A DNA stretch of 64,000 nucleotides. Source: Sphingomonadales bacterium (GTDB taxonomy: Bacteria > Pseudomonadota > Alphaproteobacteria > Sphingomonadales > Sphingomonadaceae). Each line of letters opens with the position of its first letter. The first letter of the stretch is position 1. The translations under genes and the position numbers were made by a program. The DNA lies in NCBI GenBank assembly GCA_027483465.1, contig JAIXUQ010000034.1:62001-126000 (forward strand). Direction: 5' to 3'. This document shows, piece by piece, positions 1 to 26,166 of the stretch. The notes beneath the pieces were generated by a model. It was not told where the DNA came from. It worked only from the letters and a program-made list of their open reading frames with translations, and did not search any database.

Positions 1-3000
1 CTCACCTCCAACGCCACCGTGCGGTCACGCGATGTCGGCCAGGCCATTGCCTCCACGGGCCAGCTTGATGTGGCCCGCAACCTTGCGGTGTTTGCCGGCG
101 AAAACGCCTTCATCGGCGCCACCAATGGCCAACTGCTTGAGGTGACGGGCGACATTCTGGCCGATGCCTCCAATCGGTTCAGCGCCGGCAACGGGGCCAA
201 CCGCACCGCCGGCGCGGCCTCGGTGCTGGCCAGCGACGGCAATGTCTCGGTGCTGGGCAATATCGTCGTCAGGGCCGATGGCATCGGCGATAATGCCAGC
301 GCCGCAGGACAGGCCGGCGGCACCGGCACCGGCGGCAGCGCCCAGGTGAGTGTGGCAAGCGGCGGCTCCCTGCAGGCCACCACGGTCACCATCAGCGCCA
401 CCGGCACCGGCGGCACCGCAGCCCAGGGCCGCGGCGGCGCGGCCGTGGGCGGCATTGCCATCTTCCAGCAGGCGGCCGGCACCACCCTGCAACTGGAAAC
501 CGATCTGGTGATCGATGCCGGGGCCACCAGCAGCCAGGGTGCCGATGGCCAGCCCACCGGCAACGCCAGCGGCGGCCTGGCCCAGGCGACATTTTCCACA
601 TCCAACAACATCAACGGCGGCCTCAGCATCACCAGCAACGCGCTGGCCAGCCCCGGCCAGCGCCAGGTGCCGCTGCAAACCGGCGGTGCCACCATCCAGG
701 GCGGCGCAGCCCGGCTGAGCGTGCTCGATGGCGGCGGCATTGGCGCCTTGTCCCTCAACATCAGCGCCACGGCCGGTGCCATCGGCAGCGGCGGCGGCAT
801 TGATTATCGCGGCGGCATCGCCGAAATCCTCGCCAACAGCAGCAGCGATGGCGTGGCCGTGGCCATCGCCGGCAGCGCCGCACTGGATGCGCGCGCCTTT
901 GGTGCCGATGGCCTTGCCGGCGGCGCGCGCGACGGCGGCACTGCCACCGGTGGTGCGGCCCGCATCGTGGTCGATGGCAATGCCAATGTGCTGTTCAACA
1001 CCAATCTGCTGCTGAATGCCTCCGCCACGGGCGGCAATGGCGTGGGCATTGGCAATGGCGGCAGCGCCACCGGCGGCACCACCCGCATCGCGCTGGCGTC
1101 CGGCGGGCTTTCGGTGGCCGGTCCGGTGGAAATGCGCGCCGAAGCCTTTGGCGGCAGCGGCTTGAACGGCGGCGCGGCCACCGCCAGCAACGCCAATGCC
1201 GGCTTTGCCCCGGCGGTTGATCTTTTCTATGGCACCGCCGGCCAACCCGGCCAGACCGGCATCGACATCCTGGGCGGGCCGCTGATCCTGGCGGCCCGCG
1301 CGCTGGGCGGGGCGGGCAGCAATGCCGGCACCGGCGGCGCTGCCACCGGCGGCAGCATCGTGGTTGATCTGCGCTCCCAAAGCCATCAGGCCAGCGGCAT
1401 CAGCATCGATGCCGGGGTGAGCGGCGGCAACGCCGCGCTGGGCGGCAATGCCGTGGGCAGCGATGTTTCGCTGGTGCTGTTCAACAGCGTGCTCGACAGC
1501 CAGGGCAGCTTCACCATCGATGCCTCGGCCCAGGGTGGGGAGGCGCTGGCCCAGCCGGTGGCCAATGGCGGCACCGGCGGCAATGCCCAGTTTGGCAGCG
1601 TGCAGATGGTGCTGCGCGGCCAGCCGGGGACAACGGCCAACCTGCTGGCGCCCTCACTCACCATCAATGCCAATGTGACCGGCGGCGATGGCGGTTTCTC
1701 CTCTGGCGGCATCGGTGGTGCCGGCGGCCTCGCCAATGCGCGCGGGGTGGGTCAGGGCCTGTCAATCCTGGGCCAGGCCGGCGATACCGCCATCACGCTG
1801 GGCAGCACCAGCATCAACCATGCGGCCATTGGTGGCCGCGGCGGCAACACCGATACCGGCAGGCTGGGCGATGGCGGTGCCGCCACCGGCGGTGCCATCA
1901 CGCTGGGCCTGTCAAGCGGGCCGCTGGGCCCGATTCCCAATCAGGCGCTGATTGATCTGGGCACCCTCAACATCGACGCGCGCAGCCGTGGCGGCGATGC
2001 CGGCGCCTTTGATGGCGGGGTGAATGGCGGCACCGGGGGCACTGCCGGTGGCGGGCAGTTGACCCTGCTGGTGCGCGGCGGCCGCGTGCGCGCCGCCAGC
2101 GCCACCATCGATCTTTCGGCGACGGGCGGCGAGGCCCAGGGCGAAACCCAGTCCGGCGCCGGCGGCAATGCCACCGGCGGCGGCGTCACCGTGCTGGCCA
2201 CCCCGCATTTCACCTCCGGCACGCCGGCCGATCTGCAGATTGCCGGCGCGCTCACCCTTCAACTCAATGGCACCGGCGGCGTTTCCACCAGCGCGCCGGG
2301 CACCGGCCAGGGCGGCAGCTTCAGCTTCACGCTGGGCCAGCATGAAGGCGGCGTGGCAGCGCCCGATGTGGGGGTCGCCACCATTGGCGCACTTGGGGTG
2401 AACGCCGAGGGCATTGGTGGCAATGCCGTCGATGCACGGGCCACGGCCCATGGCCATGGGCTGGGCGGCCAGATCAGCATGACGGCCCAGAATGGCAGCC
2501 TGTCGCTGGGCAGCTTCGAGGCCAGCGTGGCCGGCCGCGGCGGCGCGCGCGGCGACAACGGCACCACATCGGGCGATGGCAGTGGCGGCACCATCCAGCT
2601 GTTTGCCCAGGCCGGCAGCATGGAGGTGGCCGGCCTGGCCAGCCTGTTTGCGCAAGGGCTCAGCGGCAATGCGCTGGGCGGCACGGTGCGGCTGGCGACG
2701 CTGGACAAGGGCAGCCGCATCAGCCTGAAGGGCGATATCGTCAGGCTGGATGCGAGCGGCCTGACCGGCGACAATTCTGGCCAGGCCGGGCCTGGTTCGG
2801 CCACGGGTGGCCTGATCGAGATTGCCAATGTGGGCGATGCCACCATCGAAATGCGCCGGCCCAATGCGAGCGTTGGGGAGCTGGCGATCAATGCCGATGC
2901 GCTGGCGCAAAACATCAGCGGACCCTTGTCGCCCGCCACCGGTGGCCGGATCGCCATCAGCAATGCCGGCACGCTCACGCTTTCGGCCCCCGGTGTGTTG

Positions 3001-6000
3001 GCGCTGGATGTGGATGCCGTGGCCGCTGGCAACAGCAGCAATCCGCTGACCGGCGGTGCGGCCATTGGCGGCGAGGTCAGCCTGGTCAACAGTGGCGGCA
3101 CCCTCACGCTCAACAGCGGATTCAACCGGATCAATATCGGCAGCGGGGCGGAGGCCGGTGATTCAGCGCAGACCGGCGGCCAGGCCACCGGCGGCACGGT
3201 CACGGTGGCGATCACCGGCGGCACCGCCAATTTCAACGCCACCACCCTGGTCTATGACAACGCGTTTGCCGGCAATGCCTCTGCCGGCACGCTGGGCAAC
3301 AGCAGCGGCGGCACGGTCGGCTTCAGCTTTGGCGCGGGCAGCCAGGTCACGATCAGTGGCGATCTGCGCTTTGCAGGCGGTGGCATCGGCCAGACCCGCA
3401 CCGGCACCGCCACCAGCATCACCAGCACCGGCGGCCGGCTGGACGTGACCGGCAATCTCACCGCGATCCAGGATATCTTCATCGACCGGCCGGTGGACGG
3501 CCTGGCCGCCACCGCCGGCAGCCTGACCATCACCACCGCCGACACCACGACCCTGCTGGTGGGTGGCGGCTTCGAGGCCAATTACAGCGTGAATCTGCGC
3601 GGCGGCGGCAATGGCCACAGCGCCACGGCGGGCAGCGTGGCGTGGACCAGCCGCGGCGACATCGAAGTGCTGGGCGGCATCACCATCAGCGCCAGCGCCG
3701 ACATCGCCGCCGGCAGCCTGCAAACCGCCACCGGCGGCGTGGCCGCCATCGATGTGGCGGGCGGGCTGTTCACTGCCGGCGCTGGCCTGTCCATCACCAC
3801 CGGTGCCCAGGGCAGCCCGGCCAGCGGTGCCCAGGCCGGCGTGGCCACCGCCGGGCAGATCAGGCTGACCACGGCGGTGAACAGCCAGATGAGCATCACC
3901 GGCGGGGCGGTGAACCTGGAAAGCAACGCCAACGGCAGCACCGCCAGCGGCGCCGGCCCGGCCACCGGCGGCGATGCCATCGGCGGCAGCATCCTGATCA
4001 ACAGCGCCGGCACGATGATCTTCAACACCGGTGCCGATATCTTCCAGGTGCGCACCGTGGCCACTGGCGGCAACGCGCTGGGCAGCGGCGGCATCGGCGG
4101 CAATGCCACCGGCGGCAGCATCAGCCTGATCACCGGGGTGGACGGCAGTTTCAGCCATGTGCCGCTGTCTCCGGGCGGCGTGCTGCAACTGGAAGTGCAG
4201 GCGATTGCCGGCAATGGCAACGCCGTGGGCGGCAATGCCGTGGGCGGCACCGCGCTGATCAACAGCAGTGGCAGCCTGGGCCTGCCGGGCGGCATCTTGC
4301 TGCTGGCCAACGCCAATGGCGGGCTGGGCGCGCTCAGTGGCAATGCCACCGGCGGCAGCGCCAGCCTGCTGGTGGGCGGCGGCACGCTCACGCTTGCCGG
4401 CGATGCTGTGTTGAGCGCCGAGGCGATCGTGAATGCGCAGGCCGCGCAGGGCAACGGGCGCGGCGGCGCGCTGGCCGTGACCGTGAGCGCCGGCACGCTC
4501 GACATCAGCGGCAATCTGGACCTGCGCGCCAGCGCCAACGGCGATCAGGTGACCGGTGGCGGCATCACCGTGACGTCCGAAGCCGATCTGCGCGTGGGCG
4601 GGATTTTCGTTGCCACCGCCGATGCCGAAACCAGCAGCAGTGGGGCCGCGCCGCTGGCCACCGGCGGCAGCGTGGGCGTGAGCGTGATTGGCGCCACCAG
4701 CCGCCTGACCGTGGCCGACAATATCCGGCTTTCGGCACAAGCCAACGGTGTGGGCGCCAACAGCGCCGCCGCCCTGGCGGGCGGCAGCGTGTTGTTTGCC
4801 AGCGACGGCATCACCAGCCTGAACGGCGCCGAACTGGGCCTGTTCAGCAGCGCCACCTTTGACAGCCCGGCCGGCGGCAATGCCAGCGGCGGCAGCAGCC
4901 GGCTGACCATCGGCGGCGGCAATTTCAGCGCCAACACGCTCGCCATCCTGTCCGAAGGGCTTGGCGGCGAAGGCGGTGGCAACGGCACCGGCGGCATCGC
5001 GCGCATGACCGTGCTGGGCGGCAGCGCCAGCGTCAACGGCGGCTTTGACGTGAGCGCGCAGGGCGTGGGCGGCCTGGGCGCCACCGGCACCGGTGGCATC
5101 GGGCTTGGCGGTGAGGCCGGCCTCACGGCGGGCGGGACTGTCACCCTCGCGCTGGGCAATGCCAATTTCAGGCTGTCTGCCGATGGCTTTGGCGGCGCGT
5201 CGGGCAGCACCCCCGGCGGCGAAGGCCGGGGCGGCAGCGTGCAACTGGCCACCACCGCCAGCACCGGCCGCATCGAGATCACCGCCACCGGCGGGCCCGC
5301 GCTGGCGATCACCGCCGCCGGCCAGGGCGGGGAGGGCAGCACCGGCGGCCTCGGCCGTGGCGGCAGCGCCACGCTGGCCAATGCCGGCACATTGATCCTG
5401 CCGGGCAGCCTCACGCTAAATGCCAGTGCCACCGGCGGCGGCGGCACCACCACCGGCGGCAGCGCCATCGGCGGCACGGCCAGCGCCAGCAACAGCGGCA
5501 GCCTGCCCATCAATGGCCTGCTGCTGGTCAGCGCCAACGCCACCAGCGGCCAGGGTTCGGCCACCGGCAATGCCACCGGCGGCAGCGCCAGCTTCAGCCA
5601 GAGCGGCGGCACCAGCACGATCAGCCAGGATCTGGAACTGCGGGCCGAGGCCAATGTGGTCAACACCCCGGTGCGCGGCACCGCCACCGGCGGCAGCGCG
5701 GTGTTTGCCAACACCGCCGGCACGGTGGGCATCACCGGCAGCCTGCTGCTCGCCGCCCCGGCCGAAGGGCGCGTGGCGCTGGGCGGCAATCTCACCCTCA
5801 CCAGCCTGGGCGCCACCAGCATCGGCGGCAGCGCCGTGCTGCTGGCCAACGGCGCCAGCAATCTGCCCGATCCCACCGCCGCCATCACCGGCGGCGCCGG
5901 CAGCCTCACGGTGGGGGCCAGCGGCAGCCTGGCCATCACCGGCGCCCTCACCGTCAACATCGCGGCGCAAACCGCGATCAGCAATCCCGGCGTCAGCCTC

Positions 6001-9000
6001 AACGCCCGCAGCTTCGTCCTGCAATCGGCCGGCGTGTTCAGCGTCGGCGGTGCCGGCCTGGTGATCAATGCCGCCGCCGGCCCGCTGCAATCCTCTGATC
6101 AGGCCGGCGATGCGGCGGGCGGCGATGTCGAACTCGCCTTCCGTGGCGGCAGCCTCAGCGCCCCCGGCATCAGCGTCAACGCCAGCGCCACCGGCGGCCT
6201 CAACAGCGCCGGCCGCGGCGGCAACGCCACCGCCGGCACCGCGAGCCTGACCATCGATACCGGCACCACCGCCACCATCGGCGGCAGCATCATCCTTGAT
6301 GCCAGCGCGCGCGGCGGCAATGGCGGCGATGGCGGCGCGGCCATCGGCGGCACCGCCAGCCTGTTCGTGGCCGGCAGCCTTACCATCAATTCGGCAAGCA
6401 ACCCGGCGTTCCGCATCGATGCCACCGCGCTGGGCGGCACCGGCAGCATCGGCGGCGCCGCCACCGGCGGCCTCGCGGCGCTCGGCAGCGTTGCCGGCGG
6501 CACCCTGATCGTCAACAGCACCTCCACCACGCCGCTGCGCCCCGATGCCAGCGCCTTTGGCGGGGAGGGCGCCGCCCAGGGTGGCGCCGCCACCGGCGGC
6601 CAGGCCGAATTGCGCAACGGCGGCAGCATCACCCTGCCCACCGGCCTCAACCTGTGGGCGCGGGCCAGCGGCGGCGGCAGTTCCGGCATCGGCGGCGCGG
6701 CCACCGGCGGTGGCGTGCTGCTGGAAAATGCCGGCAGCCTGTCGATCAGCGGTAATCTTGGCCTGTCGATGGCGGCCAGCGGCGGTTCGGGCGGCAGCAC
6801 CGGCAATGCCACCGCCGGCATATTGGCCGGCACCATCACCGCCGGCACGGTGACGGTGCTGGGCGACGTGGCGGCAGACGGCAACGCCAGCGTCAGCCCC
6901 GGCAGCAGCGCGGGCAACGGCACCGGCGGCACGCTTGATCTGCAGATCAATGGCGGCACACTGGATATCGCCGGCAATCTGGGCTTTGCCGTGCGCGGCG
7001 ATGGCCGGGTGGCGCGTTCGGGTGCGCTCAGCCTGGCGGTGGGCGGCCGCCTGCTGGTGGGCGGCAGCATCACCATCGAAGCCCCAGCCGTGAGCAACAT
7101 CGCCGATGCGGCGGCCACCGCCACGGCCGGCACCGCCACCATCCTCGTCAGCGCCGGCGGCGAACTGCGCGCCGCGGGCGTGCAGGCCAATCTGGCCGCC
7201 AGCCTCACCCAGCCCTTCGCCACACTGAACGCGCGTGGCGGCGATTTCAGCCTGTCGGCCTTTGGCACGGTTGATCTGCCGGGCCCCGGCCTTTCGGTTG
7301 ATGGCTTTGCCCGCTTTGTCAGCCCCAATGGCATTGGCGGGGCGGCGCGCGGCGGCAGCTTGCAGGTGCAGGTGGGAGGCGATGGCAGCTTCACGGCCAG
7401 CCAGATCAGCCTGGATGCCAGCGCGATTGCCGGGATCAATTTCGGCGGCGCCGGCGGCAGCGGCATCGGCGGCAGCGCCAGCGTCGAGGTGCTGGGGCCA
7501 TCGGCCAATCTGAATCTGGCCGGCAGGCTGGTGTTGAATGCCGATGCCACCGGCGGCTTTGGCACCGGCGCCGGCGGCAGCGCCACCGGCGGCACCGCCC
7601 GCCTGGCCACCGGCAGCAGCGCCACAATTGCCGGCCTGGTCACGGCCAGCGCCAACGCGGCCGGCCGCAACGGCACCGGCCCCGGCGCCAATGGCGGCGC
7701 GGCCACCGCCGGCAGCGTGCAACTGATCGCGGATGGCGGCACGCTGGCGTTGAATGGTGGTGCCGATCTGGCTGCCCGCGCCATCGCCGGCAGCGGCAGT
7801 GGCGGCGGCCCGGCGTCGGCCGGCGGCAATGGCGGGCTGGCCACCGGCGGCAGCATCGGCGTGCAGGTGCTGCCCGGCGGCAGCATCGGCATCAGCAGCC
7901 TGTTGGCCAATGTGTCGGCCAGCGGCGGTGACGGTGCCACCGGCGGCACCGGCGCCACCGGCAGCACCGGGTTGGCCGGCACCAGCAGCCAGCCCAATGG
8001 CGGCAGCGGTGGCATTGGCGGCACCGGCGGCGCCGGCGGCAGCGGCGGCGATGCCCTGGCCGGCAGCCTCGGCATCGGCACCAGCGCCGCCACCAGCGGC
8101 GGCAGCATCAATATCGCCAGCCTGACGCTCACCGGCTTTGCCACTGCCGGCAGCGGCGGCCAGGGCGGGCAGGGCGGCACCGGCGGCACCGGTGGCCAGG
8201 GTGCCAATGGCGCCTTCGTGCAGGGCCAGCAGCAGCCGGGCGGCCCGTCGATCAACGGCGGCAATGGCGGCCCGGGCGGGCAGGGTGGCAACGGCGGCAC
8301 CGCCGGGGCCGGTGGCACGGCCACCGGCGGCACGCTGCTGCTGGGGGCTGATGGCAATGTGCAGGGCAATGGCTGGCAATTCACCACGCCGGTGATCAGC
8401 GGCACCTTCACCGTGATCGCCGGCGCGGGCGGCGCGGCCGGCACCGGTGGGGTGGGCGGCACGGGCGGCGCCGGCGGCGCGGCCGGCGCGCTGATCGGCC
8501 AGCAGCAAAGCAACGGCCAGCCGGGGCAGGCCGGGGCGGCCGGCTTTGGCGGCTTTGAAGGCCAGTCCGCCAATCCGGGCGCGGCGATTGGCGCCAATCT
8601 GCGCGCCCTGTTCCACAACACCACCCTTTCGGCTCAGCGGATCACGCTGGTGGCCGATGCGGGTGGCCAGGCATCGGGGCTGTTTGGCGTGGGCGGCACC
8701 GCCACCGGCGGCACCGCCGAACTGCGCTTGGACGGCGGCACCAACACGCTGGCACAGATCACGCTCAGCGCCACGGCCCAGGGCGGCAGCAGCGATGCCG
8801 GCACCGGTGGCATCGGCGTTGGCGGCGCCGTGTCACTCACCCTTTTGAATGGCGCCGTGCTCTCGCTGGGCGATGTCGCCACCCCGCTGCAATTGCGCGC
8901 CGATGGCGTGGGCGGTGATGACGCCAATGGCGGCTTTGGCGGCAGCGGCCAGGGCGGCAACATCACCGTGGCGCTCAATGGCGCCGATCTGGCGGTCACC

Positions 9001-12000
9001 GGCGCGGCGCTGCTGTCGGCCGAGGGCGCGGACGGCAGCGTTGCCGGTGCCGACAGCGGCCGGGGCGGCATGGTCAGCCTGCAACTGGCCGGCGACAGCG
9101 ACATGGCGGTCAGCGGCGGGCTCACCCTTTCCAGCCTGGCCGGCAGCGGTGAGGCCTTTGGCGGCACCAGCGAAATCGGCATCGACAGCAGCCGCCTGAC
9201 GGTGGGCGGTGGCCTCAATCTGCTGGCCGGCGCCACCGCCGATGCCACCAGCTTCACCGGCACGGCCAGCGGCGGCACCGCCCGCATCCGGCAGGATGGC
9301 GGCATATTGGATGTGGCCGGGCTGATCCGGCTGGATGTGGCGGCGCTGGCCGCCAGCGGCAGCAGCGCGCAGGGCGGCACGGCCACGGCCGGCACGGTGG
9401 ACGTGGCGGTGAATGCCAGCGGCAGCATCGTGCCGGCATCAATGCGCAGCGGCGGCATGGCGATTCTGGCCACCGCCACCGGCGGCGCCGGCCTGCTTGG
9501 CGCCAGCGGCGGCGATGCCGGCGGGGCCGGGATCAGCCTGCTGGCCAGCAGCAGCAGCGCGACGCTGGAACTGGGCTCGATCAGCCTGGCGGCCGATGTG
9601 GTGGCGGGGGCCGGGGGCGCCGGATCGGTGGGCGGCAACGGCGGGCAGGCCACCGGCGCCAGCATCAATCTGGGCCTGGTTTCGGGCAGTGCCAACGCGC
9701 AGGGCCAGATCAGCGCCAGCAGCATCACGGTTTCGGCCAATGCCACCGGCGGGGCCGGCGGCACCGCGCAAACCATGGGCAGCGCCGGCGGCCAGGGCGG
9801 CGTGGCCACCGGCGGCAGCATCACCCTGCGCAACGAAGGCGGCCTGATCACCACCGGCGCGGTGGTGCTGAATGCCAATGCCACCGGCGGGGCTGGCGGC
9901 AGCCAATCCGGGCTGGGCACGCCGCTGGGCATCGGCGGCAACGGCAGCGGTGGCACTGTGCTGCTGCTCGTCACCCCCAATGCCACGCAGGGCAACAACG
10001 GGATCACCGCGCTTTCCAGCTTGATCGGCAATGCCGGCGGCCTGGGCGGGCTGGGCGGCACCCAGGCCGGCAACGGCATTGGCGGCGTGGTGGCGCTGGA
10101 TGTGGTGCGCCAGGCCACCCGGCCGGGCGATGCCAACAGCGGCGCGCTCACCATTGGCGGCAGCGCCACGCTGGATGCCAGCGGGCGCGGCGGCGGCAGC
10201 GATGGCGGCGGCACGCTGGTGCCCGGCAATGGCAGCGGCGGCCAGGTGCGGCTGGCGGCAGAGGCCGGCAGCATCGATATCGAATCCGATGCCAGCCTGA
10301 GCGCGCGCGGGCTGGGCGGCGCGGCGGTGAACGGCGGCAGCGGCGGCAATGGCCAGATCAGCCTGGCCGCCAGCAGCGCCGGCCAAATCACCCTGCTGGG
10401 CCCGGCCAGCCTGAACGTGAGCGCGCAGGGCGGCGACGGGCTGGACAGCGGCGGTGTGGCCGAAGCCGGCAGCCTGACCATGCTGGCCAGCACGGCCGGC
10501 CGCATCAGCGCCACCGGCGGCCTGTCGCTGTTTGCCGATGGCGAAGGCGGCCTGAACCTGGGCAGCCTGGGCAGCGGCGGCAATGGCACCGGCGGCAGCA
10601 TCAGGGTTTCGGCCAGCGGGGCCGACAGCCTGATCACGCTGGGCGAAACCACGGCCCGGGCCAGTGGCAACGGCACGGCCGGCAACGGCGATGGCGCCGG
10701 CGCCCAGGGCCGGGGCGGGGCCATCGAATTCAGTGCCCTGGCCGGCGGCAGCCTGGCCCTGCAGGGCCCATTGGCGCTGGGCGCCGATGGCCGCGGCGGC
10801 TTTGGCGGCGTGGGTGGCAGCGGGCAGGGCGGCACGCTGCTGCTGGCCGCTGATGATGACGGGGTGATCAGCGGCGGCGCCGATGTGGCGCAATTGCGTG
10901 CCAACGGCCAGGGCGGCGGTGGCAGCGACGGCAGCACCGGGAACGGCGGTGACGGCGAAGGCGGCGGCGTGCGCGTGGTTGCCAGCAAGGGCGGCAGCAT
11001 CACGCTGGGCAGCATCAATCTTTCCGAAGCGCGCGGTGTGGGCGGGGGCGGTGCCAACACCGGCAACGGCGGCACCGGGCGCGGCGGCAGTTTCGTGCTG
11101 GAAGCCATCGGTGGCGGCACGCTCACCACCGGTTCGGCGCATTCCATCACCGCCAGCGGCGAAGGCGGCAGCGCATCGGGCAGCGGCAGCGGCGGGGTTG
11201 GCCTGGGCGGCCAGGCCACGGTGCAGGCCCTGGATGGCGGCACGCTGGCCATGGTGGCCAGCGGCGGCGGCATCGGCATCGGCCTGTTTGCCGATGGGGC
11301 CGGCGGTTCCGGCAGCGGCGCCGGCGGCCTGGGGCAGGGCGGCAGCGTGCTGGTGCTGGTCCAGGGCGGCGGTGCCAGCCTCACGCTGGATGGCCGGTTG
11401 GCCGGGGGCGTCGCGGTCAATCTTTCGGCCTTTGCTTTTGGCGGCAATGGCGGCGTGGATGTGGGCGGTGCCGCGCTTGGCGGCGGGGTGCGCGTGGAAG
11501 CCGATGGCGCGGCCAGCCTGGCGCTGCGCGGCATCAATCTGATCGGCGCGGGTGCCACCGGCGGCGCCAGTGACGAATCCGAAGGCGGCGCCGCGACCGG
11601 CGGCACCCTGGCGCTGCGGCTGGGCGGCGGCCAGGGCGCGCTGCTGGAAACCGGGTTTCTGACGCTGCTGGGAACGGCCCAGGGCGGCAGCAGCGGCATT
11701 GCCGTGGGCGGCGCCGCCACCGGCGGCCGCGTGGAGATCAGCGGCGCGGGCAGCGACGGCAGCCTGCAGACCGGCGGCATCGGCATCAGCCTGACGGCCA
11801 GCGGCGGCATCGGCGAAGGCGGCGGCGCGGCCACCGGCGGGCAGGCCAGCATTGCCACCAGCGGCAGCGGCCCCGGCCCGGTGGTGCGCACCGGCGCGGC
11901 CACCATCGATACGCGCGCCACCGGCGGCGAGGGCCGCAGCCTGGGCGGCGGTGCGGCCAGCGTGGGCGATGTGGCGATCAACGCCGGGGCCGGGCAGATC

Positions 12001-15000
12001 CTGATCACCCCGGCCGGCGGGGACGCGCTGCGCATCGATGCGGATATCACCGGTGGCAGTGCCATCAATGGCGGCGTGGCGCTGGGCAGCGGCGGCAATG
12101 CGCAGGCCGGCACGGGCACCATCCGGCTGGAGGCCACCGGCGGCCTGTTGCAGGTGAGCAATGCCAACATCCGCGCCGTTGCGGCCGGCGGCCAGGGCAC
12201 CGATGGCGGCGCCGCCGGCGCGGGCCGGGTGGCCCTGCTGGCCGATGGCGGCCAGCTGCGCATCGGGCTGATCAGCAGCATCCGCCTGGTGGGCCTGGGC
12301 GGTGTGGGCGATGCCGGCGGCGGCAGCGGCGCCGGCGGCAGCTTTGCCCTCACCACCCGCAATGGCGGCAGCGCCCAGCTGGGCCCGATCAACCTGATCG
12401 ATGCGGCCGGCCGCGGCGGCGAGGGCGGCAGCAGCGGCGGCCTGGGCCTGGGCGGCAATTTCGGCATCAACGCCGGGGCCGGCAGCGCCAGCATCGCCGG
12501 CATCGCCAATGTGGACATCGGCGGCGAGGGCGGCTTTGGCATCGATGCCGGCGGCGAAGGCAGCGGCGGCGCGGCCAATCTGATCGCCAATGGCGGCTCG
12601 CTGATCATCGCGGCCGGGCAGGGCGGCAAGGCGCTGGGCATCACCGGCGATGGCGTGGGCGGCGGCAGCGACGGTGGCACGGGTGGCAATGGCCTGGGCG
12701 GCAATCTGCTGCTGGCGGCCGGCCCGGATTCGGCCCTGATCGTCGATGGCAGCCTTTCCGCCGGCGAGGCGATCAGCCTGCTGGCGCGCGGCACCGGTGG
12801 CGACGGGCTGGCCGGCGGCACCGGCTTTGGCGGGCTGGTGAGGGTGCAGACCGCGCAGAACGGCACGCTGGACTTCATCGGCGCGGCGCAACTCAATGCC
12901 AGCGCCATTGGCGGCGCGGCCAGCGACGGGGCTGGCGGGGCCGGGCGGGCCGGCCAGGTGTTGGTGGCCAACAGCGCCGGCACCACCAGCGGCCGGCTGG
13001 CCACCGGCGATCTTGATCTGCTGGCCACCAGCAGCGGCGGCAGCGGCAGTGGCGACAGCGGCGATGGCGGCGCGGCCATCGGCGGCGGCACGGTGGCCTC
13101 CCCCAGCATCTTCCTGGGCCTTGATGGCGGCAGCGGGCGGGTGACAAGCGGCCAGGTGCGCGCCGATGTGAGCGCGCTGGGCGGCCAGGGCGCCAACGCC
13201 CGCATTGGCGGCCGTGGCGGCGCGGCCACCGCCGGCGCGGTGCTGATCGGCATGCGCAATCCGGGCAGCGGCGGCACGCTCACGACGGCCGGCCTGCTGC
13301 AGATCGGGGCCGGAGCCATCGGTGGCAGCGGCGGCACCGGCAATCTGGCCGATGGTGCGGGCGGATCGGGCGGCAATGCGCTGGCCGGCCGGGTCGAGAT
13401 CGCCGCTGGCGGCGGCGCGCTCGCCATCGGTTCCCCCGCCGCCGGCGTGCAGACCATCGTCGTGCTGGCCGATGGCGAGGGCGGCGTGGGCGGCAGCGGC
13501 TTCACCTCCGGCAGCGGCGGCGGCGGCACCGGCGGCACCCTGCTGATCGGGGCCAGCGGGGCCGGCGCCAGCCTCTCCACCCCCGGCATCGGCGCCAGCC
13601 TGAACGGCATCGGCCGCAGCGGCAGCGACGGCGGCGCCGGGCAGGGCGGCAGCTTCAGCCTGCTCGCCCGCGGCGATGCGATGAACATCGCCATCGGCCA
13701 ATTGTCGGTGGGCACGCTTGCCGAAGGCGGCAACAGCAATGGCGGCGGCAGCGGCGGCAATGCCCGGGGCGGCAGCATCGGCATCGATTTCGGCAGCCTT
13801 GCCGCGGCCAATCCCGCCACCACCCTGTCGCTGGGCAATGCCGATCTCAGCGCCGATGCGATCGGCGGCGAAGCCAACAACGCCGCGGCCCGCCATGGCA
13901 GCGGCACCGGCGGCAGCATCAGCATCGCCGTCACCGGCGGCAACGCGGATGTGGGGCTTGATCTGGTGCTCAGCGCCACCGGCACCGCCGGGGCCGATCC
14001 GCAGATCCTCGGCCTGTCCAACCCGCCGCGCAATCCGCCGCCGGGCCTGCCCGGCACCAGCACCGGCGGCAGCATCAATGTCAGCGTTGCTGGCACCGCC
14101 GCCGGCACTGCCGGCCGCCTCACCGTCACCCGCGAACTGGTCGCCCGCACCACGCCGGCCGTCGCCATCCCCAGCGCCTATCGCGCCGGCAGCACCCGCA
14201 TCATCGTCAGCGATGGCAGCCTGTTGCAACTGGGCCGCCTCACCAGCGTGAACGAGGGTGATGCCGCCAGCACCACCGCCAGCGCGCTGGCCGCCACCCC
14301 GGGCGCGCGCATCGAAATCGCCGGTGATGCCGAGGTCTTTGCCACGCCCAGCGCGCTCATCCTCAACGATGGCGGCAGCATCACGGCGGGCGGCAGGCTC
14401 AGCGTGGCCGGCGACGGCATCAGCCACGGCCTCGGCCGCGGGCCGGCGCAGGGCGGCAGCATCATCGCCAACGGGCTGGAGCTGTTCAGCAACGGCCTGA
14501 TCGATTTCAGCGCCAACACCACGGGCAGCGGCAGCCTCTTCTTCGAGGGCGGCCAGTTGCGCCTCGGCACGCTGGCCGCCACCGGCAGCATCGGCCTGGT
14601 CGGCATCACGGCCGGCGGCATCAGCACCGGCGCGATCGGTGCCGGCAGCCATGTCGTCGTGCTGGCCGGCGGCCCGGTCAGCCTGGGCGCGGTCAACACC
14701 GGGGCCAATGGCCGCTTCTTCGTCGGCGATGTCGCCCAGCGCGGCCTCATCAGCCTCAACACCCCGCCCGATTATGCCGCGCTGTTTGCGGCCGGGGCGC
14801 GGCCGTTCATGGCCCAGCTCGATCTGGCCCAGGTCTCGGCCGGCCGCATCGATGTCGCCACCGGCGGCGCGCTCACTGCCACCGGCCCCATCACGGCGCG
14901 CGGCCCGGCCCGCATTGTGGCACAAAGCGCCAGCCTGGCCGATATCGCCAGCACCGGCCAGTTGCTGCTCACCACCAGCGCCGCGCTCACGGCCAACAGC

Positions 15001-17424
15001 ATCACCAGCCAGGATCGGCTCAGCCTGATCGCCGGCGGCGCGCTGGCGGTGAATGGCATCAATGTGGCCATCACCAATCCGGCAGCCGAGGCGCGCGGCG
15101 ATGCCTTTGTGCGCGGCGCCAGCATCAGCCTGGGCGATGTCAATGCCGCCGGCGATATCGGGCTGGTCACCACCGGCAACCTCGCCAGCGGCGCGCTCAG
15201 CAGCGGGCGCGATCTGGTGCTGCTGGCCGGCGGCACCATCACCACCGATCGCCTTTCCACCCCCGATGCCGGCCGCATCCGCTTTGGCGATGCCGGCCAG
15301 GCCAACCTGATCAGCTTCTCCGCCGCCGGCGTGCCCAATTACACCGCGCTGTTTGCCGCCGCGCCCACGGCGGTGAGCGGGGACATCATCGTCACCGATG
15401 GCATCGCCACCGGCCTGCTCGAAGCCACCGGTGCCGGCCTGTTCCAGGCCCGCGATGGCATCAACGTCGCCATCGGCGGCCGCATCCGCGCCGCCACGGT
15501 GGATGTGGTGGATGCCAACAGCGTTGGGTTCCTCGATATCGCGGCCACCACCGATCTGCTGCTCGGCGATATCCGCGCCGATGGCGGGCTCACGCTGAGC
15601 ACCGATGGCAATATCACCGCCGGCCTCGTCACTGTGGGCGGCACGCTCAATCTCACGGCGCGGCGCAATGCCGGGCAGGGCGGCAACATCGTGCTGGGCG
15701 ATGTGCGGGCCGAGGATGATATCCGCCTCACCGCCGGCGGCCTGATCCGCACCGGCCGGCTTTCGGCGGCCGATTCGGTGTTCCTCACGGCCGGCAGCAG
15801 CATCACCACCGGCGGCATCGATGGCGGCACGGTCAATCCGCGCGCCGGGGCGGCCGGTGTGCTGTTCGCTGTCTCCCCCGATGTGATCCGCACCGGCCCG
15901 ATCAATGTTTCGGGCAGCGCCACATTGTCGGGCACGCTGGGGGTCACCACCGGCAGCATCACCGCGCCGGGCGGCATCGTGCTGCTCGATACCGGCGGGG
16001 TGTTCAGCGGCGCGCTCACCACGTCGGCCAGCGGCTTTGTCTATATCGCCTCGCACACGATGCTGCCGCAGATCACGTTCGATCAGGCCGGCAATCCGCA
16101 GTTTGCCGCGCTGCTGGCCAGCGCGCCGGTGCGGCTGATCGGCGATATCGGCCTGTCGGGCGCGGTCAGCACCGGGCGCTTCATCGCGGCGGCCACCGGC
16201 AGCTTTGCCGCCCAGGCCATCACCGCCGGCACCAGCAGCCTCGTCTCGGTGGCCGGCACCGCCATGCTGGCCGGCACTGTCGCCAGCCCCGATGTCAGCC
16301 TCACCAGCGGCAATATCGCCATCGGCCAGGGCGTCACCATCGGCGGCGCCAGCGCGGCCCGCGTGGCGCTGGCCGCTGATGCCAGCGCCACGGCCGCCGT
16401 GGTGGGCGGCAATGGCGTCACCACCGCTGGCACCTACAGCCTGTCGGGCGCCGAATTTGCCGCGCTGCGCGCCAGCCGGATCAGCGTTTCGATCAACAGC
16501 GGCACGCTCACGCTCGAAAATCTGGCGCTGCCGGCGATCGCGCCGCCGGCGCAAGGGACGGCCGAAAACGCCGGCATCTTCTTTGCCAGCAATGCCAATC
16601 TGCGGGTGACAGGCGCGGTGACCATGGCCCAGGCCAGCAGCGGCAACCGCCTTTCGCTCAGCGCCGGCACCCGCATCGAGGTGGTGCGCGGCAGCGGCAG
16701 CCTGATCCTGGGCGCCAGTGCCGACAATCCGGCGGGCACGCTGGCGCTCTCTGCCCCGGCGATCTGGGTGGCCGATCAGCCAACGCTGGATGCGCTTGCC
16801 GCCGGCAGCCTGACCGGGGACGACCGGATCGATGCCCTGCAGGAAGCCCCCGCCACGCCCAGCGGCAGCAGCCTTGCCGCCGGCACGCTCACCCTGGCCG
16901 CGCGGGACACGCTGCTGATCCAGAATGGCGGCACCGAGGATGAGCGCGCCGGCTTCACCGCCACCACGCTGATCGTGTCACGCAGCGGCGCCACGGCGGG
17001 CGGCCTGCTCGACATGGCGATCAACGGCCGCATCCGCCTGGCCGATGGCACCTTCGCCACCAATGGCGACACGCGCGAACTGGTGCAGTTCACCCCCGAT
17101 ACCGGCATCCTCACCGCCGACAGCATGGTGAACGGCTGCATCATCGGCGGCATCTGCCCCGGCATCCTGCCCGAAGGCACCGAACAGCCGGTGTTCAGCA
17201 TCGTCAACAACGTGGCGGCGCTCACGCCCGAAGAGCAGCAACAGCGCGAGGAGGCAGCGGAGGCGGCCGAGAAACTGCCGATCATCCTGCTGCAACGGCT
17301 GATCGATTTCAGCCCGATCTATGCCGCGCCCGACAGCAATGACCCGGTGACCAGCGGCGGCAACCCGTCGCTGTGGCCCGACAGCCTGCCAACCGGCATC
17401 CGCCGCCCGGGAGGGTTGAAGTGA
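1..17424 (+). CDS. Giant Gly/Ala-rich repetitive exoprotein (adhesin-like, predicted beta-helix), 5' truncated
   Basis: The frame is open from base 1 (the track start at 19 is an internal GTG), so the N-terminus lies outside the window and at least 5,807 codons are present. The protein is built of roughly 35-50 residue units in which short beta-like strands (LxLxAxAxG) alternate with GGxATGG turns, repeated on the order of a hundred times. Lys, Trp and aromatic residues are scarce. The only cysteines I found are the C-terminal pair in GCIIGGIC. Such sequence is typical of extracellular right-handed beta-helix adhesins, including filamentous-hemagglutinin-like cargo of two-partner secretion; the diagnostic N-terminal secretion domain would lie upstream and cannot be seen. 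The last ~900 residues change to longer repeats, and the C-terminus has a Glu/Gln-rich helical stretch (EEQQQREEAAEAAEK). The stop overlaps the start of the CHAT gene by one base (TGATG), implying translational coupling. Surface location and adhesin role are inferences. Confidence 0.85.
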   Translation, partial: LTSNATVRSRDVGQAIASTGQLDVARNLAVFAGENAFIGATNGQLLEVTGDILADASNRFSAGNGANRTAGAASVLASDGNVSVLGNIVVRADGIGDNASAAGQAGGTGTGGSAQVSVASGGSLQATTVTISATGTGGTAAQGRGGAAVGGIAIFQQAAGTTLQLETDLVIDAGATSSQGADGQPTGNASGGLAQATFSTSNNINGGLSITSNALASPGQRQVPLQTGGATIQGGAARLSVLDGGGIGALSLNISATAGAIGSGGGIDYRGGIAEILANSSSDGVAVAIAGSAALDARAFGADGLAGGARDGGTATGGAARIVVDGNANVLFNTNLLLNASATGGNGVGIGNGGSATGGTTRIALASGGLSVAGPVEMRAEAFGGSGLNGGAATASNANAGFAPAVDLFYGTAGQPGQTGIDILGGPLILAARALGGAGSNAGTGGAATGGSIVVDLRSQSHQASGISIDAGVSGGNAALGGNAVGSDVSLVLFNSVLDSQGSFTIDASAQGGEALAQPVANGGTGGNAQFGSVQMVLRGQPGTTANLLAPSLTINANVTGGDGGFSSGGIGGAGGLANARGVGQGLSILGQAGDTAITLGSTSINHAAIGGRGGNTDTGRLGDGGAATGGAITLGLSSGPLGPIPNQALIDLGTLNIDARSRGGDAGAFDGGVNGGTGGTAGGGQLTLLVRGGRVRAASATIDLSATGGEAQGETQSGAGGNATGGGVTVLATPHFTSGTPADLQIAGALTLQLNGTGGVSTSAPGTGQGGSFSFTLGQHEGGVAAPDVGVATIGALGVNAEGIGGNAVDARATAHGHGLGGQISMTAQNGSLSLGSFEASVAGRGGARGDNGTTSGDGSGGTIQLFAQAGSMEVAGLASLFAQGLSGNALGGTVRLATLDKGSRISLKGDIVRLDASGLTGDNSGQAGPGSATGGLIEIANVGDATIEMRRPNASVGELAINADALAQNISGPLSPATGGRIAISNAGTLTLSAPGVLALDVDAVAAGNSSNPLTGGAAIGGEVSLVNSGGTLTLNSGFNRINIGSGAEAGDSAQTGGQATGGTVTVAITGGTANFNATTLVYDNAFAGNASAGTLGNSSGGTVGFSFGAGSQVTISGDLRFAGGGIGQTRTGTATSITSTGGRLDVTGNLTAIQDIFIDRPVDGLAATAGSLTITTADTTTLLVGGGFEANYSVNLRGGGNGHSATAGSVAWTSRGDIEVLGGITISASADIAAGSLQTATGGVAAIDVAGGLFTAGAGLSITTGAQGSPASGAQAGVATAGQIRLTTAVNSQMSITGGAVNLESNANGSTASGAGPATGGDAIGGSILINSAGTMIFNTGADIFQVRTVATGGNALGSGGIGGNATGGSISLITGVDGSFSHVPLSPGGVLQLEVQAIAGNGNAVGGNAVGGTALINSSGSLGLPGGILLLANANGGLGALSGNATGGSASLLVGGGTLTLAGDAVLSAEAIVNAQAAQGNGRGGALAVTVSAGTLDISGNLDLRASANGDQVTGGGITVTSEADLRVGGIFVATADAETSSSGAAPLATGGSVGVSVIGATSRLTVADNIRLSAQANGVGANSAAALAGGSVLFASDGITSLNGAELGLFSSATFDSPAGGNASGGSSRLTIGGGNFSANTLAILSEGLGGEGGGNGTGGIARMTVLGGSASVNGGFDVSAQGVGGLGATGTGGIGLGGEAGLTAGGTVTLALGNANFRLSADGFGGASGSTPGGEGRGGSVQLATTASTGRIEITATGGPALAITAAGQGGEGSTGGLGRGGSATLANAGTLILPGSLTLNASATGGGGTTTGGSAIGGTASASNSGSLPINGLLLVSANATSGQGSATGNATGGSASFSQSGGTSTISQDLELRAEANVVNTPVRGTATGGSAVFANTAGTVGITGSLLLAAPAEGRVALGGNLTLTSLGATSIGGSAVLLANGASNLPDPTAAITGGAGSLTVGASGSLAITGALTVNIAAQTAISNPGVSLNARSFVLQSAGVFSVGGAGLVINAAAGPLQSSDQAGDAAGGDVELAFRGGSLSAPGISVNASATGGLNSAGRGGNATAGTASLTIDTGTTATIGGSIILDASARGGNGGDGGAAIGGTASLFVAGSLTINSASNPAFRIDATALGGTGSIGGAATGGLAALGSVAGGTLIVNSTSTTPLRPDASAFGGEGAAQGGAATGGQAELRNGGSITLPTGLNLWARASGGGSSGIGGAATGGGVLLENAGSLSISGNLGLSMAASGGSGGSTGNATAGILAGTITAGTVTVLGDVAADGNASVSPGSSAGNGTGGTLDLQINGGTLDIAGNLGFAVRGDGRVARSGALSLAVGGRLLVGGSITIEAPAVSNIADAAATATAGTATILVSAGGELRAAGVQANLAASLTQPFATLNARGGDFSLSAFGTVDLPGPGLSVDGFARFVSPNGIGGAARGGSLQVQVGGDGSFTASQISLDASAIAGINFGGAGGSGIGGSASVEVLGPSANLNLAGRLVLNADATGGFGTGAGGSATGGTARLATGSSATIAGLVTASANAAGRNGTGPGANGGAATAGSVQLIADGGTLALNGGADLAARAIAGSGSGGGPASAGGNGGLATGGSIGVQVLPGGSIGISSLLANVSASGGDGATGGTGATGSTGLAGTSSQPNGGSGGIGGTGGAGGSGGDALAGSLGIGTSAATSGGSINIASLTLTGFATAGSGGQGGQGGTGGTGGQGANGAFVQGQQQPGGPSINGGNGGPGGQGGNGGTAGAGGTATGGTLLLGADGNVQGNGWQFTTPVISGTFTVIAGAGGAAGTGGVGGTGGAGGAAGALIGQQQSNGQPGQAGAAGFGGFEGQSANPGAAIGANLRALFHNTTLSAQRITLVADAGGQASGLFGVGGTATGGTAELRLDGGTNTLAQITLSATAQGGSSDAGTGGIGVGGAVSLTLLNGAVLSLGDVATPLQLRADGVGGDDANGGFGGSGQGGNITVALNGADLAVTGAALLSAEGADGSVAGADSGRGGMVSLQLAGDSDMAVSGGLTLSSLAGSGEAFGGTSEIGIDSSRLTVGGGLNLLAGATADATSFTGTASGGTARIRQDGGILDVAGLIRLDVAALAASGSSAQGGTATAGTVDVAVNASGSIVPASMRSGGMAILATATGGAGLLGASGGDAGGAGISLLASSSSATLELGSISLAADVVAGAGGAGSVGGNGGQATGASINLGLVSGSANAQGQISASSITVSANATGGAGGTAQTMGSAGGQGGVATGGSITLRNEGGLITTGAVVLNANATGGAGGSQSGLGTPLGIGGNGSGGTVLLLVTPNATQGNNGITALSSLIGNAGGLGGLGGTQAGNGIGGVVALDVVRQATRPGDANSGALTIGGSATLDASGRGGGSDGGGTLVPGNGSGGQVRLAAEAGSIDIESDASLSARGLGGAAVNGGSGGNGQISLAASSAGQITLLGPASLNVSAQGGDGLDSGGVAEAGSLTMLASTAGRISATGGLSLFADGEGGLNLGSLGSGGNGTGGSIRVSASGADSLITLGETTARASGNGTAGNGDGAGAQGRGGAIEFSALAGGSLALQGPLALGADGRGGFGGVGGSGQGGTLLLAADDDGVISGGADVAQLRANGQGGGGSDGSTGNGGDGEGGGVRVVASKGGSITLGSINLSEARGVGGGGANTGNGGTGRGGSFVLEAIGGGTLTTGSAHSITASGEGGSASGSGSGGVGLGGQATVQALDGGTLAMVASGGGIGIGLFADGAGGSGSGAGGLGQGGSVLVLVQGGGASLTLDGRLAGGVAVNLSAFAFGGNGGVDVGGAALGGGVRVEADGAASLALRGINLIGAGATGGASDESEGGAATGGTLALRLGGGQGALLETGFLTLLGTAQGGSSGIAVGGAATGGRVEISGAGSDGSLQTGGIGISLTASGGIGEGGGAATGGQASIATSGSGPGPVVRTGAATIDTRATGGEGRSLGGGAASVGDVAINAGAGQILITPAGGDALRIDADITGGSAINGGVALGSGGNAQAGTGTIRLEATGGLLQVSNANIRAVAAGGQGTDGGAAGAGRVALLADGGQLRIGLISSIRLVGLGGVGDAGGGSGAGGSFALTTRNGGSAQLGPINLIDAAGRGGEGGSSGGLGLGGNFGINAGAGSASIAGIANVDIGGEGGFGIDAGGEGSGGAANLIANGGSLIIAAGQGGKALGITGDGVGGGSDGGTGGNGLGGNLLLAAGPDSALIVDGSLSAGEAISLLARGTGGDGLAGGTGFGGLVRVQTAQNGTLDFIGAAQLNASAIGGAASDGAGGAGRAGQVLVANSAGTTSGRLATGDLDLLATSSGGSGSGDSGDGGAAIGGGTVASPSIFLGLDGGSGRVTSGQVRADVSALGGQGANARIGGRGGAATAGAVLIGMRNPGSGGTLTTAGLLQIGAGAIGGSGGTGNLADGAGGSGGNALAGRVEIAAGGGALAIGSPAAGVQTIVVLADGEGGVGGSGFTSGSGGGGTGGTLLIGASGAGASLSTPGIGASLNGIGRSGSDGGAGQGGSFSLLARGDAMNIAIGQLSVGTLAEGGNSNGGGSGGNARGGSIGIDFGSLAAANPATTLSLGNADLSADAIGGEANNAAARHGSGTGGSISIAVTGGNADVGLDLVLSATGTAGADPQILGLSNPPRNPPPGLPGTSTGGSINVSVAGTAAGTAGRLTVTRELVARTTPAVAIPSAYRAGSTRIIVSDGSLLQLGRLTSVNEGDAASTTASALAATPGARIEIAGDAEVFATPSALILNDGGSITAGGRLSVAGDGISHGLGRGPAQGGSIIANGLELFSNGLIDFSANTTGSGSLFFEGGQLRLGTLAATGSIGLVGITAGGISTGAIGAGSHVVVLAGGPVSLGAVNTGANGRFFVGDVAQRGLISLNTPPDYAALFAAGARPFMAQLDLAQVSAGRIDVATGGALTATGPITARGPARIVAQSASLADIASTGQLLLTTSAALTANSITSQDRLSLIAGGALAVNGINVAITNPAAEARGDAFVRGASISLGDVNAAGDIGLVTTGNLASGALSSGRDLVLLAGGTITTDRLSTPDAGRIRFGDAGQANLISFSAAGVPNYTALFAAAPTAVSGDIIVTDGIATGLLEATGAGLFQARDGINVAIGGRIRAATVDVVDANSVGFLDIAATTDLLLGDIRADGGLTLSTDGNITAGLVTVGGTLNLTARRNAGQGGNIVLGDVRAEDDIRLTAGGLIRTGRLSAADSVFLTAGSSITTGGIDGGTVNPRAGAAGVLFAVSPDVIRTGPINVSGSATLSGTLGVTTGSITAPGGIVLLDTGGVFSGALTTSASGFVYIASHTMLPQITFDQAGNPQFAALLASAPVRLIGDIGLSGAVSTGRFIAAATGSFAAQAITAGTSSLVSVAGTAMLAGTVASPDVSLTSGNIAIGQGVTIGGASAARVALAADASATAAVVGGNGVTTAGTYSLSGAEFAALRASRISVSINSGTLTLENLALPAIAPPAQGTAENAGIFFASNANLRVTGAVTMAQASSGNRLSLSAGTRIEVVRGSGSLILGASADNPAGTLALSAPAIWVADQPTLDALAAGSLTGDDRIDALQEAPATPSGSSLAAGTLTLAARDTLLIQNGGTEDERAGFTATTLIVSRSGATAGGLLDMAINGRIRLADGTFATNGDTRELVQFTPDTGILTADSMVNGCIIGGICPGILPEGTEQPVFSIVNNVAALTPEEQQQREEAAEAAEKLPIILLQRLIDFSPIYAAPDSNDPVTSGGNPSLWPDSLPTGIRRPGGLK
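7921..8580 (+). repeat. Three Gly-Gly-X loops inside the giant protein
   Basis: Three successive repeat units are expanded by about 50-60 residue inserts of GGxGGxGG sequence, at about 7921-8070, 8149-8328 and 8419-8580. Each insert has a polar Gln/Asn/Ser/Pro patch near its middle (SSQPNGG, QGQQQPGGP, GQQQSNGQPG). They resemble PGRS or polyglycine-II type sequence and differ from the strand-turn units on both sides, so they probably leave the beta-helix as long loops. This structural reading is inferred from composition only. Confidence 0.7.
14710..16200 (+). repeat. Three long degenerate repeats in the C-terminal part of the giant protein
   Basis: Copies start near 14710, 15271 and 16030. 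Each reads, in degenerate form, a VVLLAGG-like strand, then GRF.FGD..Q..LISF, then .YxALFAAxP, then GDIxxxxxxxTGxxxAxxG. Clear anchors are PDYAALFAAGARP, PNYTALFAAAPTA and PQFAALLASAPVR. Spacing is about 560 and 760 bases. The units are unlike the GGxATGG repeats before them and mark a distinct C-terminal region. Confidence 0.75.
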
Positions 17425-20400: not shown

Positions 20401-20624
20401 ACTGGCCCGTGCCCGATGCCTTCGATGCCACCCAGACGCTTATTTCTGGCCTTTTCAAGGATATAGGCAAGGTGAGCGTGGGTGAGGCGCTGCGCCGGTC
20501 ACAAGTACAGATGATGGACGTGGCCGAAACCTCGCACCCCTATTACTGGTCCGGCTTCGCCATCGTGGGCGACGCCGCCAAGCCCTTGATGTCCCTGCAG
20601 AAAAATCAGGCCAGCGGCAAGTGA
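17424..20624 (+). CDS. Secreted TPR-CHAT caspase-like protein
   Basis: The chosen ATG overlaps the stop of the giant gene (TGATG) and gives a Sec-type signal peptide, MKRPTATKAPLTLLLAPLLW ending near AAG; the track start 51 bases upstream lacks it. Residues ~170-500 are Ala-rich helical repeats with TPR character, then a short coiled segment near 540-570. A CHAT domain fills residues ~600-1060. The catalytic dyad is visible: His901 in HFATHG and Cys950 in LSACDT. Between the front half and the catalytic half lies a proline-rich insert (residues ~785-835). CHAT proteins are caspase/separase-clan proteases; in bacteria, fusions or pairs with TPRs and hemagglutinin-like exoproteins are known. 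The signal peptide places it outside the cytoplasm, and the coupling suggests it acts on or with the giant protein. Cleavage of that protein is my hypothesis. It is 1,066 aa and looks intact. Confidence 0.88.
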   Translation: MKRPTATKAPLTLLLAPLLWTAPAAGQSLALADSFRIGNAGVLCTAQAQVADPAMRGLFDRAYRIVCRDAALPVGSLYALRTGAPALPPGCPVPAAVPVAAVPGALVSRCTVEGLARVRFQVQRGKTLFVADGLAGYASALELGLKSLIADGPVVGTVDVAATEAGDPAAFARIQAGSLEPGQALAEAYLRNNAASFAEAAEFFDLLVERSRQGAAGFSRSAEYLANQGLQQSNLGRFAEAARLFARAGQALDGSDPVASRLVRNALAQHALNQRRPAEALAVLARPVGGNIGTTDSGRLAQGYIDVPLAQRLNTDDGALRALGSGSTLLSPEERVAILEGQALYLRGVAQAAAGDLVAAQAALAQAQRALGQVRGGRVLSILWLRAGVASELARVAEANGQAAAATEAMAEAVRLTGQQFPQSAALLALQARQAGLLARQGQADQAASLYRAVVKAAPETPGAGQVLGPLLDPWFALLAARGDAAAAADLFDAAQILVRPGVAQTQAVLARELSGGSDEAAGLFRQSITLSRDLVRAQADLERLQQVEAPNALEQEQLASLREKVAILGRDQTAVLARLAEYPRFRSISQGAVSLAGLQQALKADEAYLKQIVLGDQSYVLVVGPGNASVHKVAASAADLGQLVKTIRDSVVIFENGRPTTYPFDAAAARRLYQLLMGPADGPGNKAVLASRHLVVEPDGALLQLPFNLLISADDGMAAYQARLDDPNADAFDARGLAWLGRDRMVSTATSARAFMDVRRLAASRAANAYLGLGENAVPAQALPPVLPPPPPPPPPKPKKGGVKLASAPSPMPAAPSPAPAIPSPGASDGPPMTMIPSREECDWPLAEWAHPISSAELKLAAELLKSAGSAVETQANFSDTAMMERKDLRNYKILHFATHGLVTAPRPECPARPALLTSFGGKGTDGLLSFREIFDLNLDADTIILSACDTAGAASASATREAGITTGGNFALDGLVRAFVGAGARAVIASHWPVPDAFDATQTLISGLFKDIGKVSVGEALRRSQVQMMDVAETSHPYYWSGFAIVGDAAKPLMSLQKNQASGK
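19783..19911 (+). repeat. Proline-rich insert with short tandem repeats in the CHAT gene
   Basis: A run of CCG/CCA codons encodes nine or more consecutive prolines followed by KPKKGG. After it comes a tandem PSPxPA series (PSPMPAA, PSPAPAI, PSPGAS) encoded by imperfect ~21-base repeats containing CCGTCACCG. The insert splits the CHAT domain and is likely an extended, solvent-exposed linker. Slippage could make its length variable between strains. Confidence 0.75.

Positions 20625-24819: not shown

Positions 24820-26166
<1,347 letters not shown>

Follow-up and report, generated by a model that had tools for sequence, protein, structure and literature searches.

The first 17.4 kb of the window (the whole stretch of DNA analysed, 64,000 nucleotides, C27:62001-126000 in a source genome, G000, of 3.58 Mb in 118 contigs) are taken up by a single open frame. 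The locus raises the question of how a protein of this size leaves the cell, what form it takes outside and what governs its hold on the surface. The reading preferred here, at a probability of about 0.6, is that a giant TpsA is made from a translationally coupled tpsB-tpsA-chat cassette and would form a tethered rod, with a C-terminal anchor processed by CHAT.

The reading frame

In the ORF listing, frame 1..17424 (+) is uninterrupted and open at its 5' end. Extension into the upstream DNA places the ATG at C27:60918 (window -1082) and gives a product of 6,168 aa, about 565 kDa once the signal is removed.

1..17424, plus strand: in-window part of tpsA, encoding the 6,168-aa exoprotein (signal peptide, TPS domain; ATG upstream of the window)

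Relatives found by profile search belong to Sandarakinorhabdus (Sphingomonadaceae) and include S. cyanobacteriorum TH057; from their shared genus label the window is assigned to Sandarakinorhabdus as well. GC at third codon positions is 0.84-0.88, and in the N-terminal part differences from S. cyanobacteriorum reach 0.37 at third positions against 0.19 and 0.18 at the other two, which together mark this frame as the coding one. The long antisense frames opposite the repeats (2,371 aa, window 9439-16554, minus strand; 1,844 aa, 8634-14168, minus strand) are by-products of a GC content of 72-75% and a caution for gene callers.

The composition is 22.9% G, 15.9% A and 0.03% Cys; the only two cysteines of the mature protein, residues 6074 and 6080, lie close to the C-terminus. 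An earlier note on the window had described an unbroken coding frame for a Gly/Ala-rich protein of more than 5,800 residues with two C-terminal cysteines, and all of this holds. Its ranking of the protein among the largest in bacteria needs tempering: the product is very large, but described TpsA proteins span about 100-650 kDa (PMC5422565) and it sits at the upper end of that range. Within the TPS family the rod is unremarkable in kind and stands at the top of the size range.

Probable secretion by a two-partner route

The N-terminus reads by inspection as a signal peptide (MRLFDESAP...IVRAQA), followed by a domain conserved across the family in which FYxPGG replaces the classical NPNG. The match of TpsA itself to TIGR01901 is sub-threshold (20.1 bits against 29.1). 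Among 18 relatives, the N-terminal domain matched TIGR01901 in 14, NF012204 in nine (best 2.6e-12) and PF05860 in one (5.9e-10); for the last two families, the relatives were aligned over the same N-terminal domain as TpsA. On this sequence evidence, TpsA carries a divergent TPS (FxxPxG) domain of the filamentous-hemagglutinin type. When the N-terminal profile was searched against PDB sequences, the sole match, to VgrG, was weak and lay outside the TPS domain.

C27:59116-60918, directly upstream of tpsA: tpsB, 600 aa (ShlB 9.7e-11, POTRA_2 1.6e-5)

The tpsB stop and tpsA start overlap as TGATG. The earlier note had advised looking upstream for a TPS/hemagglutination domain and an FhaC/ShlB-type TpsB gene. 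Both are present, and with the Sec signal they bear out its guess of two-partner secretion. It had staked its proposal on a secretion signal and a predicted beta-helix; the sequence has the one and structure prediction gives the other. Secretion and the predicted fold are, by sequence and model, well supported.

By reading, katG, ychF and an L25 gene lie upstream of tpsB-tpsA. The open frame after the CHAT gene matched no Pfam family, and farther downstream are pyridoxal-kinase-like, methylase, M13 peptidase, pntAB and BamA-like genes. The product of window 25003-26166 is a DNA methylase with a RAMA domain (PF01555, PF18755), which we take to be CcrM-like and ordinary for Alphaproteobacteria. 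The source genome has another ShlB-type TpsB gene (C31:30488-31465, L222), which matches PF03865 more strongly than the tpsA-adjacent one; no TpsA of the present family was found on that contig.

The repeats and the predicted rod

1..14888, plus strand: Gly/Ala-rich TpsA repeat region, predicted beta-solenoid, with profile-recognisable units up to residue 5323
4555..5787, plus strand: segment modelled with AlphaFold2 (TpsA residues 1880-2290), beta-solenoid, pLDDT 95.9, pTM 0.93, strand period 36-37

The repeat unit has the consensus xxgGsLtlaGxlxLxAxAtGGxxxggxGGnATGG and a period of 37-43 aa. The exact motif GGxATGG is found 18 times, where shuffled sequences would give 0.28, and the looser [AG]TGG 62 times. 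A unit profile recognised 68 units between residues 348 and 5323 at a median spacing of 43 aa, from which about 115-130 unit slots are estimated, many too degenerate to score. These figures correct the hundred or so GGxATGG/strand units of the earlier note. Nor are the repeats near-homogeneous, as it had supposed: pairwise identity of units averages 35%, with a maximum of 68% and none above 70%, and the best DNA self-match in the first 3 kb of the window is 77% over about 80 bases.

The structure prediction that the earlier note had called for gave an all-beta solenoid for residues 1880-2290. The model shows a single long strand in each unit, spaced 34-43 residues apart, and a unit may be read as two coils of about 19-20 residues. 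At a rise of 0.48 nm, 6,030 residues / 19.5 x 0.48 nm gives about 148 nm, which is a maximum, as Gly-rich stretches could bulge out as loops. If continuous, the modelled rod would measure about 130-150 nm, well short of the hundreds of nanometres first suggested. Foldseek searches of both TpsA models against the PDB found nothing at E<=0.001 (best E 0.03 and 0.05). The beta-solenoid assignment therefore rests on AlphaFold2 and DSSP periodicity; beta-solenoid and TpsA structures are prominent among the weak top matches.

Variation in length

The open frames of congeners are 7,555, 4,540 and 4,539 aa, against 6,168 aa here. Alignment with S. cyanobacteriorum is largely collinear over about residues 0-2900, 3400-4900 and 5200-6168, which are separated by block differences, and residues ~1200-2900 appear to be absent as a single block from the two shorter congeners. 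Identity to S. cyanobacteriorum is 73.5% in the C-terminal part and 45% in the repeats. As read from these sequences, TpsA gains or loses length in blocks of units, and its repeats are not homogenised.

Such changes could make length a device for fast, reversible variation through recombination between near-identical repeats. The spread of the congeners from 4,539 to 7,555 aa would suit this, as would Sphingobium strains with TpsB 97-99% identical, in which TpsA blocks of 32, 87 and 227 aa differ. We consider it unlikely, given units that average 35% identity with low DNA identity, repeats that stay largely collinear with their orthologues, and two congeners of almost equal length (4,540 and 4,539 aa). 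Orthologous repeats (mostly 40-55% identical) are more alike than paralogous ones (mostly 30-42%), which argues against recent recombination of like units as the rule. The length variation foreseen in the earlier note is real, and its proposed origin in such recombination is unlikely to be the usual case. The annotation of Sphingobium sp. TomTYG72 splits tpsA into two overlapping frames (L233:23675-29414), so that the gene looks frameshifted; in strains close to it the gene is one frame.

The C-terminus of TpsA

15118..17133, plus strand: conserved C-terminal part, about residues 5400-6073, 64-82% identical to S. cyanobacteriorum by window
17137..17157, plus strand: Cys pair C6074/C6080 (NGC-x5-C) at the solenoid end, candidate disulfide loop of a C-terminal anchor
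17227..17268, plus strand: predicted alpha-helix, EKLPIILLQRLIDF region, after the Cys pair (C-terminal structure model)
17341..17376, plus strand: conserved C-terminal tag DPVTSGGNPSLW, its form tracking locus type

From residue 5601 the solenoid is predicted to continue up to this region, and apart from the helix the tail beyond the Cys pair is of low confidence or disordered in the model. Among 43 sequences the first Cys is invariant and the second is kept in at least 90%. Retention of the C-terminus by a disulfide loop, as in HMW1/HxuA, is a little better than an even guess from the conserved motif.

CdiA, too, is giant and secreted by TPS, and the rod might on that ground be one that delivers toxins for contact-dependent inhibition. 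At the tpsA locus neither a variable C-terminal toxin domain nor an adjacent immunity gene was found: the C-terminus is conserved across genera and consists of solenoid, Cys pair and short tag, and the next gene encodes CHAT, not a small immunity protein. This makes a CdiA-like role very improbable.

The CHAT gene

17424..20624, plus strand: gene for a TPR-CHAT caspase-like protease with its own signal peptide, MKRPTATKAPLTLLLAPLLWTAPAAGQ
19425..20573, plus strand: CHAT peptidase domain PF12770 (E 2.5e-53, 181.9 bits against a cut-off of 24)

The tpsA stop (17422-17424) overlaps the ATG of the CHAT gene at 17424 (TGATG), and in the 12 loci read, a possible start codon for CHAT shares 1-4 bases with the end of tpsA. 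The earlier note on tpsA had missed both this coupled gene and the C-terminal anchor and tag. The His (HFATHG) and Cys (LSACDT) of the domain are present here and in 44/44 relatives with those columns, and most CHAT proteins read have signal-peptide-like N-termini. In the source genome this is the only CHAT gene found, and no LapG-type protease (PF06035) was detected in five Sandarakinorhabdus genomes.

A relative carries a TPR-rich N-terminal part, and by analogy that of the present protein may be of the same nature. This would suit a different role for CHAT beside an ordinary FHA-like adhesin, such as a TPR-based periplasmic chaperone or assembly factor, or a regulator; TPS maturation proteases have, moreover, been described as encoded outside TPS operons (PMC5422565). 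We regard a non-protease role as rather unlikely, as retention of His and Cys in 44/44 relatives would be unexpected if catalysis were needless.

CHAT and TPS loci across Sphingomonadaceae

The TpsA N-terminal domain was found in 85/251 sampled Sphingomonadaceae genomes, and elsewhere in the class as weak matches (E 6e-9 to 1e-13). CHAT occurs in 84/85 TpsA-positive genomes against 42/166 others (Fisher p 3e-33, uncorrected for relatedness). Within the locus it was present at 90/99 TpsA loci, downstream in 33 and upstream in 57. The nine in which it was not found include one with CHAT upstream on reading (G035b), one with a partial match downstream (G199) and one that ends at a contig end (G209). 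That CHAT is absent where none lies downstream was considered and rejected, as it lay upstream in 20/20 such loci checked.

The CHAT-upstream order, Sphingobium plasmids included, is CHAT, CHASE2/cyclase, small secreted protein, TpsB, TpsA; several of these loci differ, with CHAT abutting TpsB. Examples with a CHASE2-cyclase (PF05226 + PF00211) and a secreted protein of ~240-280 aa between CHAT and TpsB are L203:1632-7776, L208:5541-8391 and L228:15932-30041. This arrangement might feed a signal to the TPS rod.

A control reading covered 20 other CHAT-gene regions, most from genomes without a TpsA match and some of them second CHAT genes. Six have a clear TpsB beside CHAT (G108, G013, G230, G052, G119 and the second CHAT of G033) and one a weak match (G206); the remainder showed no TpsB in the stretch read. 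CHAT is not exclusive to TPS, yet the TPS of the present family is almost never without CHAT. The congener G108, taken at first as TpsA-less, proved to have a divergent CHAT-TpsB-TpsA locus. At G108:C10:113000-132000 (L239), TpsB and a divergent TpsA lie about 3 kb on from CHAT, a different cassette order within the genus.

In most CHAT-downstream loci the tag takes the form GG(N/D)-xx-L, against GAGN(D/E)DLW in CHAT-upstream loci; scored by script, its acidic pair is present in 0/25 of the former and 43/48 of the latter. By reading, the five exceptions comprise one mislabelled row (G033, a CHAT-downstream locus), two proteins truncated at contig ends (G205b, G237), one miss of the regular expression and one tandem locus; the expression misread G096 and G188. 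In the CHAT tree the two tag/locus types fall on either side of one branch (100/100), and the tree of TpsB shows the same division (96/91). Independent co-evolution of tag and locus type was rejected, the trees giving one origin. With a single origin and a like split in TpsB, the match may reflect common descent and not enzyme-substrate fit. The cassettes have diverged as units, which is consistent with partner fit without proving it.

Proposed mechanism

In the preferred reading of a tethered, CHAT-processed rod, TpsA would be exported by Sec and then threaded to the surface N-terminus first by TpsB (Omp85-type), as family membership implies, and outside the repeats would fold into a beta-solenoid of roughly 130-150 nm, the fold being predicted and the length calculated from it. 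Export, threading and folding very probably proceed in this way. The C-terminal end would be held in the periplasm or the TpsB pore by the disulfide loop of the Cys pair. The exported CHAT protease would then cut near the tail, recognising the tag region, and so bring about maturation or release; given the genetic linkage, the signal for export, the intact His and Cys and the type of tag, we put this step at even odds. The rod itself is probably an adhesin or biofilm-type surface filament.

The new element is the recurrent presence within a TPS cassette of an exported CHAT protease, apparently catalytically intact by sequence. Standard descriptions of the TPS pathway are without one, and in this bacterial family the operon nearly always includes it. 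In the literature covered, which excluded subscription papers and preprints, no paper was found that mentions a CHAT domain or CHAT protease alongside two-partner secretion, (filamentous) hemagglutinin or CHASE2, nor did we find a bacterial CHAT protease for which an extracytoplasmic substrate has been described. We suggest tentatively, at somewhat under even odds, a three-partner secretion in Sphingomonadaceae, with CHAT as a standing third component matched to the TpsA tag and controlling anchoring or release in place of LapG or SphB1. The CHASE2 sensor cyclase of one cassette form suggests signal-controlled processing. As the two genes are coupled, and both a candidate substrate and a candidate tag for its recognition can be named, the proposal is open to direct test, and if true, CHAT processing would account for the control of giant adhesins in genomes without LapG.

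Comparison with known systems

The NCBIfam entry matched by nine of the 18 relatives (NF012204, adhes_FxxPxG) is named after LktA, and the link to a leukotoxin is in name only. FHA/FhaC of Bordetella shares the TPS domain, the TpsB partner and the long beta-helix rod. FHA repeat coils are of about 19 residues. TpsA here is much longer and has the divergent FxxPxG-type domain, and its operon contains the CHAT protease gene, whereas SphB1, the protease that matures FHA, has its gene elsewhere (PMC5422565).

HMW1/HxuA of Haemophilus offers a precedent for a C-terminal disulfide anchor (PMC5422565), likewise with a Cys pair near the C-terminus past the solenoid and then a helix; HxuA also heads the Foldseek matches for the C-terminal model, though not at a significant score. 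TpsA adds a conserved tag beyond the Cys pair and a CHAT partner, and its disulfide and anchoring are only candidates. In CdrA/CdrB of Pseudomonas aeruginosa, also a TPS adhesin, the periplasmic cysteine protease LapG decides between surface retention and release (PMC4694147). LapG is transglutaminase-like and controlled by c-di-GMP, whereas the candidate here is CHAT, of the caspase-like clan, with a gene that overlaps tpsA.
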